NCBI GenBank assembly: GCA_007131745.1
Contig: SLPX01000292.1
Location: 1 to 11,788 of the forward strand
Reading direction: 5' to 3'
DNA length: 11,788 nt
Source: Myxococcales bacterium
GTDB taxonomy: Bacteria > Myxococcota > Polyangia > HGW-17 > SLPX01
Shown: in pieces, positions 2,315 to 11,788 of the stretch
How the letters are laid out: the number at the start of each line of letters is the position of its first letter
How positions within the stretch are numbered: the first letter of the stretch is position 1
The notes under the pieces: model-generated
Databases searched by the model: none
What the model saw: the letters and a program-made list of their open reading frames with translations, nothing else
Told to the model about the DNA's origin: nothing
Program-made: the position numbers and the translations under genes

Positions 2315-3700
2315 ATGATGAGCCCCGGAAAACGCTGTTTTTTGCTTTTTTGTTTTATCCAGGCGATCGCTTTTGCCGCGTGCAGCCAAAAAACCGACAA
2401 GGTGATAAGCTGCGATGATCCGGGGATTTGCGGACCCCACGGTGTCTGTGATGACAACTCGGGCACAGCCAGGTGCGTGTGCAACCAGGGTTACACCGGC
2501 AGATACTGCGATGAATGCGACACTGGCTATATGTCGGACGGCGCGGGCAACTGCGTTCAAGGCACGGACTGTGATTCGTATTGTGCAGCGCAGGGTAGGG
2601 TATGTGCATCCGAAGGGGGCGCTGATATGACTTGCGGCGACTGTTTGCCCGGCTGGTTCGAGGAGAACGGGCATTGCATTCAGGCGTGTGAAGCAGCGCA
2701 CTACCCCGGCGAATTGGTGCAACTCGATGTCTACATCTTGCTGGATCGCTCGTTTTCCATGCTCGACGATGACAAGTGGGCAAAGACGACCGCGGCGATA
2801 GACCAGTTTGTAAGTTCACCGGATGCTTCCGGAATCGGAGTGGGATTACAGTTTCTGCCCGTAGAGCCTCCTCCCGAAACCACGTTCGTTGAAAACTGCA
2901 CCAATGATGACGATTGCGGGCTCTACGGTTCCTGCGATTGGGGTTATTGCCTCGGCTACTGGGCCCAGGATTCTTCTTGCGACCCCGCTGATTACGTGGA
3001 ACCGGTCGTGGATATTGCGCCCCTGCCCGGAGCGGCAAGCGCGATCTCCCAGGCCATGGCCGATACATCGGCCACCGGTTCGCAGACCCCTATCCAACCC
3101 GCGATGGAAGGTGTCTACCAGTACCTGGCCGATTACGCGGCTGCAAACCCCACGCATCTTGTTTACCTCCTTTTGGCCGCGGACGGCATGCCCATGGGCT
3201 GCACTTTCAATACAACCGCGGCGTCAGCGGACGCTGCAGAGGAAATGACGTCCAATGACCCTCCGGTTTATACTTATGTATTCGGAGTTGAAGACGCTCA
3301 AAACAACCTCGAAGGATTGAACGCAATAGCTGCAAAAGGCGGAACGGGTTCGGCTATCCTGGTCGGTTCGGATGAAGCCGTGACACAGACCTTTATCGTC
3401 ATGTTGAATGAAATACGCGCCAGGGCGCTTTGCAAATACCTGATCCCCGAACCGGAGGGTCAAACGGTCGACTTAGACCTTGTAAACGTCTCGATCGTGG
3501 ACCCAACCGACTCCGGATCGGGTGAAACGGTTTTCCACGTGGCGAGCGAAGCACACTGCGACCCGATTACCGGTGGGTGGTACTATGACGACCCGCTCAG
3601 CCCCTCCATGATCGTTTTGTGTGATGTCACCTGCGATTACATAAATGCACACAGCCGCGATGTTGAGATCCTGGTAGGATGCAAAACAATAGTGAACTGA
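2315..3700 (+). CDS. EGF-like / von Willebrand A domain lipoprotein (paralog A)
   Basis: The product has 461 residues. The start follows AAGGAA at 2303-2308; a second ATG comes immediately after. Residues 1-22 form a lipoprotein signal (FAA before Cys23). Residues 33-65 hold six cysteines in EGF spacing (33, 39, 45, 54, 56, 65), followed by further Cys-rich EGF/laminin-like modules to about 125. The VWA domain covers about 136-375 with a complete MIDAS metal site: DRSFS (Asp144, Ser146, Ser148), Thr258 and Asp290. A Cys-rich loop (Cys195, 201, 207, 212, 222) is inserted inside the VWA fold. Residues 376-461 form a Cys-containing C-terminal beta domain. VWA domains with an intact MIDAS bind protein ligands through a divalent cation, so an extracellular adhesive or recognition role is likely; the ligand is unknown. 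A close paralog lies downstream. Confidence 0.9.
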   Translation: MMSPGKRCFLLFCFIQAIAFAACSQKTDKVISCDDPGICGPHGVCDDNSGTARCVCNQGYTGRYCDECDTGYMSDGAGNCVQGTDCDSYCAAQGRVCASEGGADMTCGDCLPGWFEENGHCIQACEAAHYPGELVQLDVYILLDRSFSMLDDDKWAKTTAAIDQFVSSPDASGIGVGLQFLPVEPPPETTFVENCTNDDDCGLYGSCDWGYCLGYWAQDSSCDPADYVEPVVDIAPLPGAASAISQAMADTSATGSQTPIQPAMEGVYQYLADYAAANPTHLVYLLLAADGMPMGCTFNTTAASADAAEEMTSNDPPVYTYVFGVEDAQNNLEGLNAIAAKGGTGSAILVGSDEAVTQTFIVMLNEIRARALCKYLIPEPEGQTVDLDLVNVSIVDPTDSGSGETVFHVASEAHCDPITGGWYYDDPLSPSMIVLCDVTCDYINAHSRDVEILVGCKTIVN

Positions 3701-3776: not shown

Positions 3777-3855
3777 CGAGACAGGGAAATAGTGGATTCG
3801 TAGGTTTTCACCCAGTTATCTGCGGATCCGGACAAGTGTTGTGAAGGTTTTTTCC

Positions 3856-3860
3856 AGGAG
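3856..3860 (+). promoter_or_regulatory. Ribosome binding site fixing the start at 3868
   Basis: AGGAG lies 7 bases before the ATG at 3868. The in-frame GTG at 3841 lies upstream of this site and would add nine residues (MKVFSRRRQ) before the signal peptide, so 3868 is preferred. Confidence 0.75.
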
Positions 3861-3867
3861 AAGGCAA

Positions 3868-5250
3868 ATGTTAACAAGTAAAAAGTTTTTATTATTATTT
3901 CTGTTTATACCCGCGTTGGCTACATGCAACCAAACAACCGGCAAGGTGCTGAGTTGCGATGATCCCAATATCTGCGGACAACATGGAACATGCGACGACA
4001 GCACGGGCAACGTGGTGTGCATCTGCGAACATGGTTATTCCGGAAGATTCTGCGATGAGTGCGAAACGGGTTTCTCATCCGACGGTGAAGGCAACTGCGT
4101 TCAGGGAACGGATTGTGACACGTTTTGCGCGGCCCAGGGAAGGGTGTGCGATTCCGACCAGGGCGTGGACATGTCTTGCGGCGAATGTTTGCCCGGCTGG
4201 TTCGAAGAAAACGGAAAATGCATCATGGCATGCGACGCGGCCCATTACGAAGGCGAACTGGTGCAACTCGATGTCTACATTCTTCTGGACAGGTCGGCTT
4301 CCATGCGCGACGACCAGAAATGGTCCAAGACAATCAACGCGATAAAGACGTTCGTGAACTCCTCGGATACTGCGGGCATGGGCGTTGGGTTGCAGTTTTT
4401 TCCGGTAAAGCCGCCTCCCGGAACCAGCATCCCGAGTGCCTGTACCAGCGACGCGGATTGCGGTCTCTACGGACCTTGTCTTCCCATTATGAATCAATGC
4501 AACGGCTCCTGGGCATCTGATTCTTCTTGCGACCCGGAGGACTATTTGGAACCGGCCGTGCATATAGCTCAACTCCCGGGAGTCGCGGGTGAGATGAACT
4601 CTGCTCTGGATAATGAATCCGCGGACGGATCCGCCACGCCTATCCAGCCGGCGATGGAAGGTGTTTTCGATTACATAGTGGAATACGCTCAGGCAAACCC
4701 CACTCATCTTGTTTACCTTCTATTGGCCGCTGACGGTATGCCGACGAGTTGCAGCTACAACTCCACCAGCGCCAGCGCGGACATAGCCGAAGAACTGCTT
4801 AACAGCGAACCGTCGGTGCCTACTTACGTGTTCGGCGTGGAAGATGCCGAAAACAACCTGGAAGGGCTTAACGCTATAGCAGCCAAGGGCGGCACCGGTT
4901 CGGCCATTCTGGTGGGTTCGGATGAAGCCGTGACCCAGACCTTTATCGACATGTTGAACGAGATCCGAGCCATGGCCCTGTGCAAGTACCAGATTCCCGA
5001 ACCCGAAGGCCAGACGGTTGACTTCGACATGGTAAACGTTTCGATTACCGATCCCGCGGACCCGGGCGCGAGCCGGACGGTTTTTTACGTGGGAAGCGAA
5101 GAAAACTGCGATTCAATGTTCGGCGGTTGGTACTACGATGACCGGGACAATCCCACTATTATTCTTCTTTGCCCCGCGACGTGCGAGTACCTCAACCAGA
5201 ACAACCGCGACATCGAAATCCTGGTGGGATGTGAAACGATCGTAAACTGA
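3868..5250 (+). CDS. EGF-like / von Willebrand A domain lipoprotein (paralog B)
   Basis: The product has 460 residues from the ATG chosen by its ribosome site. The signal peptide ends at LAT before Cys20. Domain order matches paralog A throughout: EGF-type cysteines at 30, 36, 42, 51, 53 and 62; more Cys-rich repeats to about 122; a VWA domain at about 133-374 with MIDAS residues Asp141, Ser143, Ser145, Thr257 and Asp289; a Cys-rich inserted loop at 192-221; and a C-terminal domain ending in the same GCxTIVN motif. In the stretch 320-359 only one of 40 residues differs from paralog A, yet many codons differ at the third base. This points to an old duplication kept under purifying selection rather than recent copying. 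The predicted role is surface recognition of a protein or matrix ligand. The next gene begins 40 bases downstream. Confidence 0.9.
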   Translation: MLTSKKFLLLFLFIPALATCNQTTGKVLSCDDPNICGQHGTCDDSTGNVVCICEHGYSGRFCDECETGFSSDGEGNCVQGTDCDTFCAAQGRVCDSDQGVDMSCGECLPGWFEENGKCIMACDAAHYEGELVQLDVYILLDRSASMRDDQKWSKTINAIKTFVNSSDTAGMGVGLQFFPVKPPPGTSIPSACTSDADCGLYGPCLPIMNQCNGSWASDSSCDPEDYLEPAVHIAQLPGVAGEMNSALDNESADGSATPIQPAMEGVFDYIVEYAQANPTHLVYLLLAADGMPTSCSYNSTSASADIAEELLNSEPSVPTYVFGVEDAENNLEGLNAIAAKGGTGSAILVGSDEAVTQTFIDMLNEIRAMALCKYQIPEPEGQTVDFDMVNVSITDPADPGASRTVFYVGSEENCDSMFGGWYYDDRDNPTIILLCPATCEYLNQNNRDIEILVGCETIVN

Positions 5251-5635: not shown

Positions 5636-6370
5636 ATGAGGAGACATCACAAGGTCATGAAAATGAGAATAAGAGCTATCAATAAAAAAAGGTTCATGAT
5701 CATTGCAGGGACTGTACTCGGTTTGGGGATCATGGTGTCGTCATCTTGCACACGTTCAGCAAAGACCGGACACACTGAAAGCAGCGCGGGAGAATCCGCT
5801 GAATCCGAAACAACCGGTCAGACATCGCAAGAGGGCAACCACGAACAAGCCGACGACAAAGTCAAGATCGATCTGAGCCAACACCTGGAAGAACAAAGCG
5901 ACGAAAACGGGGAGACGGGTATTTGCAGCCCCGAACTGGTGCTTTGCGGCGAAACAGCAGATGATTGCGTTGACGTGAACACATCGATTCAGCATTGCGG
6001 GGAATGCGGCCGCCGATGCTTCAGCAATCAAAAGTGCACCGAAGGTTCATGCAGCGGCGTGGGTATCATCACCGCAGCCCAACTCAAGGAAGCTATGGAG
6101 AACAAGGATTTCCTCCTGATCAATGTGAGAGTGCCGCCCGTGGGGATCATCCCGGGCACCGATGCATCCATTCCTCATAACCAACTCGACCGGATGGTGG
6201 CTGCAATAGGCGAGGACCTCGACAAACGGGTTGTGCTTTATTGCGGAACATCCACCAGAATCAAGATTGCTCTGCAACTTCTTCGTGAACGCGGATATAA
6301 AAACATTTCCGTTCTGGAAAACGGAGTCAGCGGCTGGAGACAGGCCGGTTTTCCCACGCAATCCGGTTAA
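5636..6370 (+). CDS. Rhodanese-domain lipoprotein with Cys-rich linker
   Basis: The product has 244 residues from the ATG at 5636 (AAAGGGAG at 5617-5624, spacing somewhat long). In-frame ATGs at 5657 and 5663 are alternatives; the latter has AAGG 8 bases upstream. The basic N-terminus and hydrophobic core precede SSS and Cys38, an atypical but possible lipobox. Residues 40-95 form an acidic, Ser/Glu-rich linker. Residues 97-139 carry eight cysteines, including HCGECGRRC, a pattern seen in many myxobacterial surface proteins. The rhodanese domain covers about 144-242: an LLINVR strand (160-165), the catalytic loop CGTSTR with Cys203 and Arg208, and a GVSGWRQAGFP end. The active-site Cys is present, so sulfur transfer or thiol chemistry outside the cytoplasm is possible; the substrate is unknown. 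The gene overlaps the convergent propeller gene by 4 bases. Confidence 0.87.
   Translation: MRRHHKVMKMRIRAINKKRFMIIAGTVLGLGIMVSSSCTRSAKTGHTESSAGESAESETTGQTSQEGNHEQADDKVKIDLSQHLEEQSDENGETGICSPELVLCGETADDCVDVNTSIQHCGECGRRCFSNQKCTEGSCSGVGIITAAQLKEAMENKDFLLINVRVPPVGIIPGTDASIPHNQLDRMVAAIGEDLDKRVVLYCGTSTRIKIALQLLRERGYKNISVLENGVSGWRQAGFPTQSG
6367..6370. other. Tail-to-tail stop-codon overlap in palindromic TTAA
   Basis: The plus-strand rhodanese gene stops with TAA at 6368-6370, and the minus-strand propeller gene stops with TAA read from 6369-6367. Both stops sit in one TTAA, itself inside the palindrome GGTTAACC (6365-6372). There is no room for a terminator between the two genes, and I see no convincing hairpin close by. 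Confidence 0.9.
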
Positions 6371-7899
6371 CCATCATTTACCCATACAGAAATGAAGAGT
6401 CGCAACCTGGGTGAGCCGTCGTTTACGGTAAGGATGTCCAAAACCCCATCGCCGTCCGCGTCCAGGATGACAGCGAACCGGGTGTGGGCCGGTTCCAGGC
6501 CGAGCGAAGGCGTGAAATCCAGCATGCGGCCCTCTGCGGTCCCCACGTAAAGCCTATCGGCCTGCCCGTAGTTTGCAATAACCACATCGGTGAAGCCATC
6601 CAGGTTGAGGTCTCCGGTCGCAGCGCAGCGTGAGTCGGTCCTATCCACCGGGAGCATGGCGGTTGTGTCGTCGAAGAAATGTGCATTGCCGTCATTGATG
6701 AAGACCCTGTTCTGACCTTGAGTGAGAAGCAACAAGTCCATGTCGCCGCTCGACTCCACGTCCAGCGGAGTGGAAAAAGTCACCGGATCCGGGGGGGACA
6801 CTACAGGTTGCTGCACAAAACGAAGAACCGTGGAATTTTCGTCATCGACGGTCCGCCTGTTTAAAAGCACCCGCAAGAATTCCCCCGTCGGGGAATCATT
6901 AGCGGTGAGTACGAGATCCACCGCGCCGTCGCCGTCCAAATCCGCCGCGGAGATGGAGCTGAATGTATCGCCTGAAAAACTGTGAACCGGTTCTCCATCG
7001 GAAACCGTCCATGGCTCTATATCTTCGTCGATTTCAAAAAGAGGATTTCCGGGAGCACCCAGATTTCGATATACCCTCAGAAATTGAACATCATCGTTTT
7101 CTTCTTTTGCTGCAATGACGACGATTTCCGCAAGACCATCACCGTCGAGGTCCGCGGCTGCAGCCGCGATACAACTTCCAACCCGGGGAGGTAACCCGTC
7201 CGATTCGTGAAAGCGCCCGGCGCCGTCATTGAGCAGCAGCCGATTCGGTTCCCCAGAACCACTGCATCCGAAAATGTCCGGGCTTCCGTCACCGTCGAAA
7301 TCAGCGACCACGAGTGCTCGGGTGTCTTGGATAAACACAGGAAGGCCGGGGCCTTCTTCAGGATCAGGATCTGTATCGGAAAAACCACCTGCGCCGTCGT
7401 TTAAAAGGAACTTGCTTTGCCCTCCGGATATTGCCAGCAAAATGTCAACAGCGCCGTCGCCGTTCAGGTCGACAGTTGCAACATCAGTGATGAGCACATC
7501 GCCTAAATTGGGCAAATAATGAGACGCAGCTTCCCTGAAATCGAGCGCCAGCGGTTCCACCTCGACAGCGTCCCGCATGGTGGCTGATGCTCCTGCCGGA
7601 ACCTTTACAGTAACATCGTAAACACCGGCTGTTTGAACCGGGGTGATAGCGGTGAGAACGTCCGCTGTCGAGTCCACGATTTCGAGGGGTTTGTCGCCAA
7701 GGTAAAGAGAAACTCCGCTCTTGAAGTTTCTTCCCTTCACAATGAGTGTTTCACCGCCTCGGGCCGAAACCCTTTCAGGAGAAACTGAATTTATTTTCAA
7801 ATCGGGATCGCCGGATTCACAGCTTGCTGCAAACATGAAACCCGTGAGAAGGAAAACAAAGGCCGCTCGAACAGCAGTTGGTATAACATCCTGCATCAT
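6367..7899 (-). CDS. IPT/TIG plus seven-blade FG-GAP (VCBS) propeller lipoprotein
   Basis: The product has 510 residues. The signal peptide ends with AAS before Cys27. An IPT/TIG Ig-like domain spans about 34-115 (the INSVSPERVSARGGETLIVKG segment is typical). An integrin-alpha-type propeller follows, with calcium loops at 144-152, 200-208, 250-258, 320-328, 430-438 and 480-488, and a degenerate seventh at 380-388 (DVESSGDMD), which lacks the usual Asp/Asn pattern. That count fits a seven-bladed propeller. Short LLNDGAGRF-type phrases recur between blades, as in VCBS repeats. The chain ends soon after the last loop. Its start overlaps the stop of the upstream gene (ATGA at 7899-7896), so translation is probably coupled. 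It is predicted to be a calcium-stabilised surface binding protein whose partner is unknown. Its domain plan is that of the upstream protein without the lectin end. Confidence 0.9.
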   Translation of the reverse strand: MMQDVIPTAVRAAFVFLLTGFMFAASCESGDPDLKINSVSPERVSARGGETLIVKGRNFKSGVSLYLGDKPLEIVDSTADVLTAITPVQTAGVYDVTVKVPAGASATMRDAVEVEPLALDFREAASHYLPNLGDVLITDVATVDLNGDGAVDILLAISGGQSKFLLNDGAGGFSDTDPDPEEGPGLPVFIQDTRALVVADFDGDGSPDIFGCSGSGEPNRLLLNDGAGRFHESDGLPPRVGSCIAAAAADLDGDGLAEIVVIAAKEENDDVQFLRVYRNLGAPGNPLFEIDEDIEPWTVSDGEPVHSFSGDTFSSISAADLDGDGAVDLVLTANDSPTGEFLRVLLNRRTVDDENSTVLRFVQQPVVSPPDPVTFSTPLDVESSGDMDLLLLTQGQNRVFINDGNAHFFDDTTAMLPVDRTDSRCAATGDLNLDGFTDVVIANYGQADRLYVGTAEGRMLDFTPSLGLEPAHTRFAVILDADGDGVLDILTVNDGSPRLRLFISVWVNDG

Positions 7900-9953
7900 G
7901 AATCATTTCCCCCGCTTTCTTCAGGTTCTCGGCACGCATCCCCAGGGCCGGGCGGGCCATGATACACTTCATCCGCGCAGATGAATCCACGCTGCCCATC
8001 GCATGGAAAATCATTCCATCCCCGATCGTCGCCTTCACCGAAAAAACCAGCGCAATCCTCGTTTCCCCCGGAATTGTTCGGCTCGCCTTCCCGCCAGTCG
8101 GACCATGTCAACTCCGTGCCGTCCACCCACACAAACTCTCCCTCGGTCTCCCGATCGTCCAGCCCGATCCAAAGAGGCTCGTCGCTGATAACCTTGAGAT
8201 AGTCGTTCTCTTCGGGTGTGCGTATGACCACCAGGTCTCCACCCCGCCCGAGGCAAAATTCACGCGCATCGTCATAGTCAAGCGGAGCGGCTGTGCAAAA
8301 CAGGTAAGCTCGCTCCCCACTACGGACATGCAGCACGCACCCGCTCTCTTGAGCGCAATCCTCTCGATCCTTGCAGTAGAAGTGATAAACTGAAGAGTTT
8401 GCCTGGTCAGGATTGTAAACGTCCGGACAATTATCCGCCTCATCGGGAATCCCGTCCCGGTCCCTGTCATCGAACATGGGATCCCAGTTCCATAAAAGCC
8501 AGGGCCGTCTCATGCGGGAGCGGCTCACGAAAATCTCGGGGTATCCGTCATTGTCCGCGTCCAGTACGGCCACGCCCAAAGCATCCGAGATAGCCGGACG
8601 ATCGGGCGCTACCCGGCCCGAATAATCGAAAAGCCGGCCCATGGGGTCCCCGCGATAAATCCTCAACCTCCCGTTCAGGTTCGCCACTACGACATCACTC
8701 GAACCGTCCATGTCCAAATCAGCTATCACCGCACTGTAGCCGTGCTCACTTCCCCCGGAACCCAGACGTTCCACCGTCTGGTCGACAAACCCTCCCAGGC
8801 CGTCGTTTATCCATATCCTGTCCTGACCCGCGCTCACCACGTAAATGTCCGGGAACCCGTTGCCGTTGAGGTCCCCCACGGCGGGTATGCGCGTGTCCAG
8901 ATCCGCGTGAGGCGGCAGGGCCGAAGGGCCTGCATCGCGGAAAACACCAGCGCCGTCATTCAGCCAGAGCCTGCATGCACCGTTTCTCAACGCCAGGAAT
9001 AAATCCGCCGCGCCGTTTCCCGTGAAATCGCCTACTCCGACTCCGGACGCGTTCAGGTCCGGTTCGGGCAACCGTATTTCGCTCTCATCGGCAAATCCAC
9101 CGGAGCGGTCGTTCATCCACAGCGCGACGTGCGCGGATACGCTGATTTCGTTTTCCGCGTCGTTGTACGCTCCGCGCACGATGATCAAATCAGGATATCC
9201 GTCTCCATCAAAGTCACCCGCGGCCGCGTGAATCGAATGGCTCTTTCCCTCGGGTATCATTGATGCATCGATGGTGGAAGCGTCCGTAAAGACCATTTGA
9301 CCTTCATTGAAAAACACCCGATCGGTTTGATAATCCATCAACGCGAGATAAAGATCCGGCAAGCCGTTTCCATTGAAATCAGCGGGCACGGCAATCGCTG
9401 TGCGAGCGAACGGTTCTTCACCGAACCCGGGAACGGTTTGTATAGGCAGGGTATTGAATGTTCCGTCGGACCTGTTGTGGTAAATTCGCAATCCATCGCC
9501 CGCTGCCTGGATCAAATCAACCGCACCGTCTCCATCCAGGTCTGCTGCGGAAACCAAGCGGCCGTCCAGTGGAGCGGAGTTCATAAGATGGGAATCCGTT
9601 CGGTCGACAAAATAAAGAGGTGTTCCCACATAACGGAACGCTCCCGGGGATACAAACTTGAAGTCACCTTTTCGCACGCTTATATCCACAACCCCGGTCT
9701 TTTGTCCGGCCGGGGAAACAACCTGTATGGCCGAAGACGCGGTCGAAACGACTTCTGCTTCCCGGTCTCCGAAATAGACCCGGACCGAGGATGAAAACCC
9801 CGAGCCCTGCAGGGTTACGACCGTCCCCCCCCTTATGGTGCCCCTGTCCGGGATGACCGAATTCACTTCGACATAATTGTTTTTCGAAGTGCAGCCGAAT
9901 GGTCCTGCAAAAAGAAAAAACACCCACATAGCGACTTTCACGCTTGAGTTCAT
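7896..9953 (-). CDS. TIG / FG-GAP propeller / thrombospondin-3 / C-type lectin lipoprotein
   Basis: The product has 685 residues from the ATG at 9953. The signal ends with PFG before Cys21. Domains in order are: TIG at about 29-110; a propeller at about 115-480 with seven calcium loops (138-146, 192-200, 247-255, 309-317, 361-369, 412-420, 465-473); a thrombospondin type 3 motif at 495-516 (DRDRDGIPDEADNCP); and a C-type lectin domain at about 539-661. The lectin has WIGL (595-598), the EPN sugar-selectivity motif (624-626), WND (646-648) and the two expected disulfides (Cys567-Cys659, Cys634-Cys651). In animal lectins EPN goes with calcium-dependent binding of mannose/GlcNAc-type sugars. The protein therefore very likely binds a glycan at the cell surface; the target is unknown. 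The TSP3 motif is probably a rigid calcium-filled spacer. It is co-transcribed with the genes on either side. Confidence 0.92.
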   Translation of the reverse strand: MNSSVKVAMWVFFLFAGPFGCTSKNNYVEVNSVIPDRGTIRGGTVVTLQGSGFSSSVRVYFGDREAEVVSTASSAIQVVSPAGQKTGVVDISVRKGDFKFVSPGAFRYVGTPLYFVDRTDSHLMNSAPLDGRLVSAADLDGDGAVDLIQAAGDGLRIYHNRSDGTFNTLPIQTVPGFGEEPFARTAIAVPADFNGNGLPDLYLALMDYQTDRVFFNEGQMVFTDASTIDASMIPEGKSHSIHAAAGDFDGDGYPDLIIVRGAYNDAENEISVSAHVALWMNDRSGGFADESEIRLPEPDLNASGVGVGDFTGNGAADLFLALRNGACRLWLNDGAGVFRDAGPSALPPHADLDTRIPAVGDLNGNGFPDIYVVSAGQDRIWINDGLGGFVDQTVERLGSGGSEHGYSAVIADLDMDGSSDVVVANLNGRLRIYRGDPMGRLFDYSGRVAPDRPAISDALGVAVLDADNDGYPEIFVSRSRMRRPWLLWNWDPMFDDRDRDGIPDEADNCPDVYNPDQANSSVYHFYCKDREDCAQESGCVLHVRSGERAYLFCTAAPLDYDDAREFCLGRGGDLVVIRTPEENDYLKVISDEPLWIGLDDRETEGEFVWVDGTELTWSDWREGEPNNSGGNEDCAGFFGEGDDRGWNDFPCDGQRGFICADEVYHGPPGPGDACREPEESGGNDS

Positions 9954-10008: not shown

Positions 10009-10977
10009 TCATCGAACATTGACCCGCTTGAATTCACCCTCGGAATTCACAATGATCACACTGCTGCGGTCGATACTCGGGTGCGGCCGTTTGAAGCCGG
10101 GCAGTTGCCATTTCATTGCACCGCTATTTCCATCCACCGCGTATATGGACCCGCGCACCTCGAAAACCACTGTTCCGTTCAGCCATACCGGAGGTTGCGG
10201 ACCCTCGGGCATCGGGACATTCTCCTGCACGATGTCCGGAGTATTCGTCAGGCGCCGCATATTCCGCCCCGAAACACCCACGACCCACAGCGAAGGAACA
10301 TCATCGCGTGCGGAGGCGAAAACAAGCTTGCTGCCGCACTCTGAAAACGCGGGCAACGCAAGAGGTGGGCCGGGTTCCACAACCGTGTGACGAACACCGG
10401 TTTTCATGTCAAATCGATAAAGCCCCATCAATGGAATTTCACCGCTTACATAGGCAATCGTCCCACCGCAAGGAGACCAGGAAAAACCGTTCAAAACATC
10501 CTTGTCGATAGAAGTGACATCTCCGGTTTGTGGATTCCAGACGACGAGGTCCCCCCTTCCATGAAGCACAGCCAAAAGACCGGATCCGTCCGGAGCGAAC
10601 CCGGCATCCTGGATCCATCCATGATTTCCGGGCAGCACACCAATCACCTGACCGAAAGAATCCGAGAGATACGCCTCGAAGCGGCGAAAACCGGTGGTCC
10701 TGGGAGGCGCTGGAACCTGTCTCCCAATAGCGATCATGCCATCCGGTGAAACATCCAGAATTTCAAAGTCCGAATCCACTGATTCGGAAACAGCTGCCAG
10801 GTATGAATCGCTCCGGCCGGCCGTGTCCGGGAAGACATCCGAAAAATCGGGGCCGCGCGGTCTTTCGGCTTCGTCGTTCTCAATTAGGGCTGACTCATCA
10901 TTTTCGTGTACATCTAAATAATTCTTGAATTCGCACGACAGGCCCATCAATGCACACATGCACAAAATGGATAACAT
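10009..10977 (-). CDS. Alternative separate gene: TolB/PD40-like propeller lipoprotein, 322 aa
   Basis: If the long frame is really two genes, this one starts at the ATG at 10977, with AAAGGA (complement of 10990-10995) 12 bases upstream. Residues 1-14 form a short hydrophobic signal with GLS before Cys15; it lacks the usual basic residue, which is a weakness. Residues 16-65 are an acidic linker. The rest (about 66-322) reads as a TolB/PD40-like propeller of about six blades: VSPDGMIAIG (76-85), FAPDGSGLLAV (127-137), FSWSPCGGTIAYV (165-177), FSECGSKLVFASARDD (211-226) with NMRRLT (239-244), VWLNGTVVF (264-272) and SSVIIVNSEG (305-314). TolB acts in the periplasm with the Tol-Pal system, but this protein lacks the TolB N-terminal domain, so only the fold is claimed. 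It precedes the lectin gene by 55 bases. Confidence 0.6.
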   Translation of the reverse strand: MLSILCMCALMGLSCEFKNYLDVHENDESALIENDEAERPRGPDFSDVFPDTAGRSDSYLAAVSESVDSDFEILDVSPDGMIAIGRQVPAPPRTTGFRRFEAYLSDSFGQVIGVLPGNHGWIQDAGFAPDGSGLLAVLHGRGDLVVWNPQTGDVTSIDKDVLNGFSWSPCGGTIAYVSGEIPLMGLYRFDMKTGVRHTVVEPGPPLALPAFSECGSKLVFASARDDVPSLWVVGVSGRNMRRLTNTPDIVQENVPMPEGPQPPVWLNGTVVFEVRGSIYAVDGNSGAMKWQLPGFKRPHPSIDRSSVIIVNSEGEFKRVNVR

Positions 10978-11788
10978 TATTCCGAGCAATCCTTTATCAC
11001 TATTTCCATTTTTCCGGCCGAATCGCGTTCGCGTACCCAGGAACAAAAACAGGAAAAACATGACGTTCAACAAAAACACGATTGAATTCATCATCCGGCT
11101 GGAACCGCTTCCCACTACAAGACAACTGCATCCTCCCGTCACGCCGGACATTTCTTCCAGACCCGGCCCGCCCTTGTCGTCTTCCCCCTTCAAATGCGAT
11201 GGTGCGGAAGAGAGATCCAAAAAAGGTTCCGGGCAACGCATGAACTCATGATCAGGACCGACCAACTCGAAACGCTCCGTGATTTCAACTTCGACTTCTT
11301 CGGACAGATAAACATGGAAAACAAATTCCCCTGTTTTCCCCGGCGCCGTATCCGTGCGAAGCACCGCAGCAATGTCGTGGGCGGACCAGGATTCTGCATC
11401 GTAAAACATGCTCGGCGCCCCCTCGTAGGGTTTTCGCGCTGCCAGGTGAACTTCCCCGGACGGCCAGGTTCCGGATCCCACGTTTTCGAACACGGCCCAG
11501 ACCTGTATTCGTTCGCCGGGTTTAATCCGCGCGGGCGCGCTCCAATCAACAATGCGGGCCGCGAATTCCGGCGGTGGATCACCCATCACCGAAGGATAGC
11601 CGTCGTCGATCAGGCCGTTGCAATCATTGTCCACGCCGTCGCATATCTCGGGTACCGGGTCCAAGATTCTCACGCATTCGAGGCAACCATCAATGCATCG
11701 CATCCGTCCCTCAGCGCAGGGTCCGGGCTCGCCCGTGTCGCACGCAGGCGTTCCTTCCGGATCCGGGCCGTGACAATCGCTCCACTCA
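10009..11788 (-). CDS. Continuous frame: MopE-motif/Ig-like/MYXO-CTERM-like protein running into TolB-like propeller (5' partial)
   Basis: As written, one frame is open from the window edge (codon at 11787-11785) to the TGA at 10009-10011. Its first part has Cys-rich spacing of the GTPACDTGEPGPC kind, then a MopE-type CDGVDNDCNGLIDDG motif (11643-11599). Next comes an NBR1-like Ig domain (VWAVFENVGSGTWPSG and surroundings, about 11550-11240), then an acidic linker and a GCSC motif (11133-11122). A hydrophobic span and a basic RTRFGRK end follow (to about 11010). That end resembles a MYXO-CTERM sorting tag, which normally closes a protein. Here the frame instead continues into a lipoprotein-like signal and a propeller. 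I suspect two genes joined by a frameshift or by a sequence error in an A5 run, but the text supports one frame. Any catalytic N-terminal domain lies outside the window. Confidence 0.7.
   Translation of the reverse strand, partial: EWSDCHGPDPEGTPACDTGEPGPCAEGRMRCIDGCLECVRILDPVPEICDGVDNDCNGLIDDGYPSVMGDPPPEFAARIVDWSAPARIKPGERIQVWAVFENVGSGTWPSGEVHLAARKPYEGAPSMFYDAESWSAHDIAAVLRTDTAPGKTGEFVFHVYLSEEVEVEITERFELVGPDHEFMRCPEPFLDLSSAPSHLKGEDDKGGPGLEEMSGVTGGCSCLVVGSGSSRMMNSIVFLLNVMFFLFLFLGTRTRFGRKNGNSDKGLLGIMLSILCMCALMGLSCEFKNYLDVHENDESALIENDEAERPRGPDFSDVFPDTAGRSDSYLAAVSESVDSDFEILDVSPDGMIAIGRQVPAPPRTTGFRRFEAYLSDSFGQVIGVLPGNHGWIQDAGFAPDGSGLLAVLHGRGDLVVWNPQTGDVTSIDKDVLNGFSWSPCGGTIAYVSGEIPLMGLYRFDMKTGVRHTVVEPGPPLALPAFSECGSKLVFASARDDVPSLWVVGVSGRNMRRLTNTPDIVQENVPMPEGPQPPVWLNGTVVFEVRGSIYAVDGNSGAMKWQLPGFKRPHPSIDRSSVIIVNSEGEFKRVNVR
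10994..11013 (-). other. A5 run followed by three out-of-frame stop codons at the gene junction
   Basis: On the minus strand an A5 run (11013-11009) is followed by TAG, TGA and TAA one after another (11002-10994), none of them in the long open frame. Adding one A to the run would end the upstream protein as RFGRKKWK and put all three stops in frame, 16 bases before the ATG at 10977. That arrangement is what two separate genes would look like. Confidence 0.7.

Follow-up and report, generated by a model that had tools for sequence, protein, structure and literature searches.

A predicted lipoprotein with an intact C-type lectin site is encoded beside a putative wall-hydrolase scaffold in a conserved myxobacterial gene cluster

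What does a C-type lectin domain of animal type do on a bacterial lipoprotein? The question is raised by an 11,788-nt stretch of contig SLPX01000292.1 from a Myxococcales bacterium (the window; all coordinates are positions within it), the minus strand of which encodes TFL, a predicted lipoprotein of 685 amino acids ending in such a domain. The TFL gene is a member of a conserved cluster with TF2, a second predicted lipoprotein, and a hydrolase scaffold, and it is this module around the lectin, not the lectin, that forms the interesting part, its notable feature being that a lectin of animal type, intact and switching in specificity, recurs beside a wall hydrolase that is itself exchangeable. 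We tentatively propose, at a little below an even chance, that lectin, TF2 and scaffold form a surface module in which the calcium lectin would hold glycan-bearing targets for a displayed wall hydrolase. An earlier note on this DNA, which read TFL as a calcium-dependent glycan-recognition display, had missed the strand of the gene, the partner gene that overlaps it and the hydrolase scaffold upstream, and these alter the likely role of the protein. The parts of TFL are as follows.

7896..9953, minus strand: TFL, predicted lipoprotein, 685 amino acids, with TIG domain, seven-loop FG-GAP propeller, TSP3 motif and C-type lectin domain
9630..9866, minus strand: TIG/IPT domain, residues 30-108 (Pfam, 6.8e-14)
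8481..9620, minus strand: FG-GAP beta-propeller, about residues 112-491, with seven calcium-type loops
8403..8468, minus strand: single TSP3-like motif, about residues 496-517, under the Pfam cut-off
7977..8279, minus strand: Lectin_C domain, residues 559-659 (Pfam, 3.6e-22)

The C-terminal domain matches Lectin_C (PF00059) in Pfam with 79.6 bits against a cut-off of 22.6 (E 3.6e-22). Both calcium sites are represented, with all ligands of site 2 (E-P-N, E, W-N-D) in place, and the motif positions (EPN624, E632, WND646) together with the alignment row place the calcium/sugar site at E624, N626, E632, N647 and D648; the lectin domain with a full EPN/WND site that the earlier note had described on a predicted lipoprotein is thus real. 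At the N-terminus Cys21 lies behind a hydrophobic stretch, but the candidate lipobox, judged by eye, has P and F at positions -3 and -2; TFL is probably a lipid-anchored surface protein. The propeller consists of seven repeats with calcium loops and has an integrin-type fold. The TIG domain, seven-blade propeller and lectin head of the architecture first proposed are borne out by these results; the TSP3 stalk is not, since TFL contains a single sub-threshold motif (one stretch, 16 bits against a cut-off of 25), which is too short for a stalk. In the relatives P0010 and P0124, TSP3 is above the cut-off, with one repeat at 28.1 bits. Every NCBIfam match of P0001 fell under its cut-off.

An AlphaFold2 (AF2) model of TFL has a predicted local distance difference test score (pLDDT) of 86, with 78-95 per ten-residue block across residues 551-660, the lectin part. 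Foldseek aligns this part with fish Mincle (9kpl; template modelling (TM) score 0.84 by target length, root-mean-square deviation 2.6) and with mouse SRCL (2ox9; TM score 0.84 by target length, root-mean-square deviation 1.9), so the structure prediction suggested in the earlier note gives a C-type lectin-like domain (CTLD) fold of Mincle/SRCL type, modelled with confidence. The superposition of the site residues that was also suggested has its answer at two levels of comparison, the fold match and the alignment. We conclude that the C-terminal domain of TFL is probably a genuine calcium-dependent C-type lectin, predicted from its residues to be functional. EPN sites predict specificity for mannose/N-acetylglucosamine (GlcNAc), and those of known CTLDs accept GlcNAc; the change from EPN to QPD is the classical switch from mannose to galactose, and many CTLDs bind protein or nothing. 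The EPN site of TFL is accordingly expected to prefer mannose/GlcNAc/glucose-type sugars, an expectation that is only indirectly supported.

The likeness to the carbohydrate-recognition domains of animal C-type lectins (Mincle, SRCL, DC-SIGN and mannose-binding protein) is one of fold and, presumably, of shared motifs, which we take to be WIGL, EPN/QPD, WND, both calcium sites and the canonical cysteines. Unlike those domains, the lectin of TFL sits on a bacterial predicted lipoprotein after a TIG domain, a propeller and a TSP3 motif, and wall-hydrolase genes are linked to it. The propeller is similarly alike in fold to the seven-bladed FG-GAP propellers of CRTAC1 and integrin alpha, at 13-20% identity in the rows concerned, but TFL is bacterial and has a predicted lipid anchor, and no integrin beta partner was seen. 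A mannose-receptor-like protein of an acorn worm, P0121, is 44% identical to the lectin part of TFL, about the level of the best bacterial matches outside the family. In three proteins with PF08757 and a MopE motif (P0125, P0126 and P0127, one of which bears the name spore coat protein CotH) the lectin domain shares 42-46% identity with that of TFL, and they represent another bacterial use of this type of lectin.

To describe the family, 7998 candidates were scored and 1356 matches found, of which the best 120 were listed; among those listed, 17 besides the query combine a propeller with Lectin_C and were aligned. Together with the query (the row of the window), two further proteins and 15 rows from genome loci, they make 35 family rows, in which P0012 and L007 are nearly the same protein and both are counted; L002 and L005 (the same proteins as P0008 and P0011), L013 (no lectin in the sequence covered) and propeller proteins lacking a lectin were left out. 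The site tripeptide is QPD in 16 rows, EPN in 13, EPS in three, and EPG, EPK and APA in one each, and the full site 2 is kept in 28 of the 35. With the galactose-type QPD in 16/35 rows, sugar specificity is therefore a variable trait in the family. Across all 29 EPN or QPD rows E pairs with N and Q with D, the mixed forms EPD and QPN being absent; such mixed tripeptides do occur outside the TFL family. On a maximum-likelihood tree built with the tripeptide masked, the minimum number of EPN/QPD changes is 5, as read from a tree in which the branch of L053 is very long and the residue composition of 11 rows is unusual. Well-supported branches provide five independent pairs, and in every one both positions change (sign test, p 0.0625, a value below which five pairs cannot fall). 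Switching of this kind is as expected of a working sugar site that is re-targeted, as far as can be judged from sequence, and the sugar preferences of members would be predicted from three residues (EPN versus QPD).

The earlier note had also held that bacterial C-type lectin-like domains often lack the site residues, but in this phylum an intact site is nothing unusual. In a survey of 377 genomes of the related phylum, that of G001 (the genome of locus L001) and probably Myxococcota, and of 14 control genomes, Lectin_C was above cut-off in 223 of the 377 and in none of the 14 controls. Eleven genomes picked for holding the TFL family gave 52 matches, and the DNA around these yielded 52 distinct domains or pieces, 12 of the family and 40 others; three of the 40 are pieces without the site, and 18 of the 37 that could be scored have an intact site (EPN or QPD plus E/D, N and D). 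A second sample, taken from the best-ranked matches in the 377 genomes (28 loci and 20 picked rows) and biased to strong matches, yielded 38 intact sites among 50 non-family domains. Within this phylum, therefore, intact bacterial CTLDs cannot be called rare, and on its own the lectin of TFL is an ordinary member of a domain family common there. The proposed display as a whole keeps its complete site, its CTLD fold and its predicted lipoprotein, and loses the rarity of such sites along with the stalk.

What sets TFL apart is its neighbourhood, the minus-strand features of which are listed here.

6367..7899, minus strand: TF2, second predicted lipoprotein with TIG and FG-GAP, 510 amino acids, with a 4-base overlap (ATGA) between its start and the stop of TFL
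10009..10983, minus strand: propeller-like part that shares the open frame of the scaffold and stops 55 bp short of TFL; it carries a lipoprotein-type signal of its own (by eye) and a partial TolB-type match
10984..11787, minus strand: hydrolase scaffold, C-terminal part, with a sub-threshold MopE motif, an NBR1-Ig-like region, and GCSC plus a hydrophobic stretch

The order of genes on this strand is scaffold and propeller part (one open frame), a gap of 55 bp, TFL and TF2. Among 14 loci, two of which (L005 and L002) belong to one genome, TF2 adjoins TFL in 12 (not in L005 or L010) and the hydrolase scaffold is found in nine (L001, L002, L003, L005, L006, L008, L009, L011 and L012). The order of the genes varies (lectin-TF2-propeller-scaffold, scaffold-TF2-lectin and lectin-scaffold-TF2), and P0004 unites a TF2-like part with the lectin protein in one chain. 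A scan of the 377 genomes, with three candidates scored per genome and counts that are consequently lower bounds, gave a match to the scaffold alignment (E <= 1e-20) in 43; 18 of these cover model positions 330-450, and in the remaining genomes the match is limited to the cysteine repeats or a head. All eight genomes with a detected TFL-family lectin protein are among the 18, and in seven of the eight the scaffold and lectin lie on the same contig and strand within ~3.2 kb. The scaffold is thus present in 8/8 lectin genomes against 10/369 others (Fisher p 4.7e-12), and in 4/4 lectin genomes outside the 14 loci (G381, G035, G092 and G214, with the scaffold alongside the lectin in all four) against the same 10/369 (Fisher p 1.3e-6), both p-values being guides because genomes share descent and three of the 18 scaffold genomes (G001, G007 and G008) gave rows to the query alignment. 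That the association holds in 8/8 despite the shuffled gene order speaks for selection that keeps the genes linked. In G145, to which the cut locus L013 belongs, and in G237, scaffold and propeller proteins are present, with no lectin in the matched DNA. A literature search, covering its sources in part, found no description of this lectin/hydrolase cluster.

The TIG region of TF2 (P0052) lies just above the NCBIfam cut-off for NF058597, choice-of-anchor Z repeating domain (31.2 against 30 bits). A match of TF2 to TcdB_toxin_midN (31.4 bits against a cut-off of 24.8, E 1.4e-7) was set aside, as it exceeds the cut-off in no one stretch, the best being 22 residues long and lying within the FG-GAP region.

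The catalytic head of the window's scaffold lies beyond the window edge and is known from the database protein P0138 alone, which comes from this contig and differs from the window in three residues of its last part, the lectin protein being identical. P0138 (886 amino acids) combines an M23 peptidase with cysteine repeats, a MopE motif under threshold, a region resembling NBR1-Ig (for which sub-threshold matches come from relatives only), GCSC with a hydrophobic stretch, a second signal-like stretch with a Cys, and a partial TolB-type match (44 of 343 bits, 1.4e-11). The M23 match scores 69.2 bits in Pfam against a cut-off of 28.7 (3.5e-19), and NGHGGTD and HLHL are present, which we take to be the HxxxD/HxH metal motif of peptidase M23. 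A census of 24 scaffold proteins (22 of the scaffold alignment plus L005 and L008) gave five kinds of head: M23 in seven, an NlpC/P60 signature in eight, CHAP-type in five, GH25 in two and a DPBB signature in two. M23 and GH25 were called by Pfam (precomputed for the GH25 heads, P0141 and P0149), and the NlpC/P60 and DPBB signatures by eye on the motif; of the CHAP calls, that of P0143 comes from Pfam (6.4e-10), those of L006 and L009 from weak PcsB matches that stay far under the cut-off, and those of P0152 and L008 from a motif or inspection by eye. For the head seen most often, the NlpC/P60 identity was not borne out: P0145 has a Pfam E of 0.51, and the others of the kind have no Pfam match; a sequence search of solved structures gave no match for the head of L001, and neither Pfam nor such a search gave one for the DPBB-like head of L003 and P0144. 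An AF2 model of P0142, built from 8 rows, has a mean pLDDT of 60.3 and a predicted TM score of 0.30, with pLDDT under 50 across much of the head. A pattern scan for scaffold frames at 15 loci found them in three (L149 M23-like, L151 NlpC signature, L153 CHAP-like), which are not counted in the census, and none in 12.

Different heads are nevertheless found on one scaffold. P0141 (GH25) and P0146 (NlpC signature) are 75% identical in the scaffold (244/324) and have unrelated heads, and the two probably lie together with the lectin protein P0006. On the scaffold tree the heads require 11 changes, against a mean of 13.5 on shuffling (lowest 10 in 200 shuffles); they follow the tree weakly, with 5/21 branches well supported and the bootstrap unsettled, and the 75%-identical pair is the firmer evidence. 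Endolysins and lysostaphin-type enzymes are modular: their catalytic heads can be exchanged while the part for binding or anchoring is shared, and the scaffold resembles them in this. It differs in probably being anchored to the surface of its producer, and in that sugar binding would fall to another lipoprotein encoded alongside.

At the C-terminus most partner scaffolds have a GC motif, a hydrophobic stretch and a basic tail, as do the MYXO-CTERM proteins TraA and MXAN_4924. Against TIGR03901 (MYXO-CTERM, cut-off 20 bits) P0150 passes at 26.3, L002 (18.9) and P0151 (17.6) fall short, and the other scanned scaffolds gave no match. According to PMC11980579, surface arrival of TraA and MXAN_4924 of Myxococcus xanthus needs the myxosortase or the MYXO-CTERM, and one internal MYXO-CTERM is reported, in MXAN_5598. 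Unlike TraA and MXAN_4924, P0138, L001, L003 and others have no match or a sub-threshold one, and P0138 runs in frame into a lipoprotein-type part. Reading without a stop from a hydrophobic-tailed scaffold (or TF2) into a signal-like stretch and a second protein is seen in the window (10009-11787, minus strand; P0138), in L009 (2068-5340, scaffold-TF2) and in P0004. Such a joined frame could give a polyprotein that a myxosortase-like enzyme and a lipoprotein signal peptidase cleave apart; alternatively its second part may start internally, AAAGGA lying upstream of an internal ATG. Four scaffolds (P0140, P0143, P0144 and P0148) end a few residues past a GCxC motif and lack the hydrophobic tail, perhaps by truncation, frameshift or a different mode of anchoring.

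From the domains, the intact site, the coupled EPN/QPD switching, the gene linkage and the different heads on one scaffold, which are established by computation, we infer sugar binding, surface exposure of lipoprotein and scaffold, their physical cooperation and the kind of target. At the cell surface the lectin and propellers would capture a target that bears glycans, be it a neighbouring cell, prey or released wall material, and the hydrolase displayed on its MYXO-CTERM-like scaffold would cut the wall of what is held. Sorted along the TraA/MXAN_4924 route, the scaffold would present the hydrolase outward, with the cell's own wall out of reach; if that route holds, other cells or free wall material would therefore be the natural substrate, and the co-encoded calcium-lectin lipoprotein would most simply supply the contact. 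The more specific proposal of an undescribed Myxococcota surface weapon or feeding module, in which an EPN/QPD-switchable calcium lectin guides the anchored scaffold to contact-dependent, glycan-targeted lysis of other cells and the head that cuts peptidoglycan has undergone many exchanges (M23, CHAP, GH25, perhaps NlpC/P60 and a DPBB-type domain), is as a whole somewhat unlikely, if a serious candidate. Should lectin and hydrolase cooperate at the surface, the cluster would offer a genetic handle on how predatory or competitive myxobacteria choose the neighbours they lyse.

Several observations weigh against a cooperating surface module. Linkage is no proof of joint action. The scaffold was not seen in five of the 14 loci, of which L010 and L013 lie on short contigs and L004 and L014 are truncated at one end; in the fifth, L007, none appears in the >7 kb to one side or the ~6 kb to the other, a real absence in the DNA covered. 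In G009 scaffold and lectin are on different contigs, and the scaffold occurs in at least 10 of 369 genomes in which no lectin protein of the TFL family was detected; the limits given above for the genome counts and the Fisher tests count here as well. The MopE and NBR1-Ig matches of the scaffold are all under the Pfam cut-offs, and P0138 itself has no TIGR03901 match. On the lectin side, at least one site-2 residue is lost in 7/35 family rows (the EPS, EPG, EPK and APA rows and P0015), and the EPN block (621-630) is the least sure lectin part of the model, at a pLDDT of 78.

TFL might instead be a plain surface adhesin or glycan-capture protein (for biofilm matrix, host or algal glycans, or polysaccharide feeding), the hydrolase being merely another surface protein of an envelope gene island. 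The further predicted lipoproteins of the window (by eye, VWA/EGF and rhodanese), the far wider spread of Lectin_C than of the module, and TFL-TF2 pairs without a scaffold in the DNA covered at L004, L007 and L014 all fit this reading; we consider it rather unlikely, as the scaffold accompanies the lectin in every lectin genome while gene order is shuffled. Recognition of kin or self, with the lectin binding the strain's own surface glycan and EPN/QPD tracking the self glycotype as TraA varies in Myxococcus, would suit specificity residues that switch at least five times, a MYXO-CTERM-like partner, and the precedent of TraA, described in the literature as a polymorphic cell surface receptor. 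However, TraA recognition is reported to run between TraA proteins and not via a lectin, the EPN and QPD rows that were compared each represent different genomes, and attack or remodelling is the better fit for a hydrolase partner; we consider this explanation improbable.

A third account would have the lectin bind peptidoglycan or glycans attached to it, as the substrate-binding unit of the hydrolase in wall recycling or debris scavenging. Hydrolase-headed scaffolds at nine of the loci and the acceptance of GlcNAc by EPN sites speak for it, but QPD in nearly half of the family rows ill fits a constant target of GlcNAc/N-acetylmuramic acid, and we give it little credence. That the domain retains its motif and yet binds protein or nothing appears very unlikely: some relatives have lost the site (EPS in three, EPG, EPK and APA in one each, and P0015), but the full site in most rows and the unbroken coupling of E/Q with N/D count against it. 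The surface module of lectin, TF2 and scaffold thus remains the reading that we favour.

Three further predicted lipoproteins are encoded on the plus strand of the window. Positions 2315-3700 and 3841-5250 hold a tandem of similar proteins that combine a VWA domain with an EGF-like motif (above the Pfam cut-offs in the second, below them in the first), the DxSxS metal motif being kept in both as judged by eye; positions 5636-6370 encode a protein with a Stig1-like cysteine cluster and a rhodanese domain.

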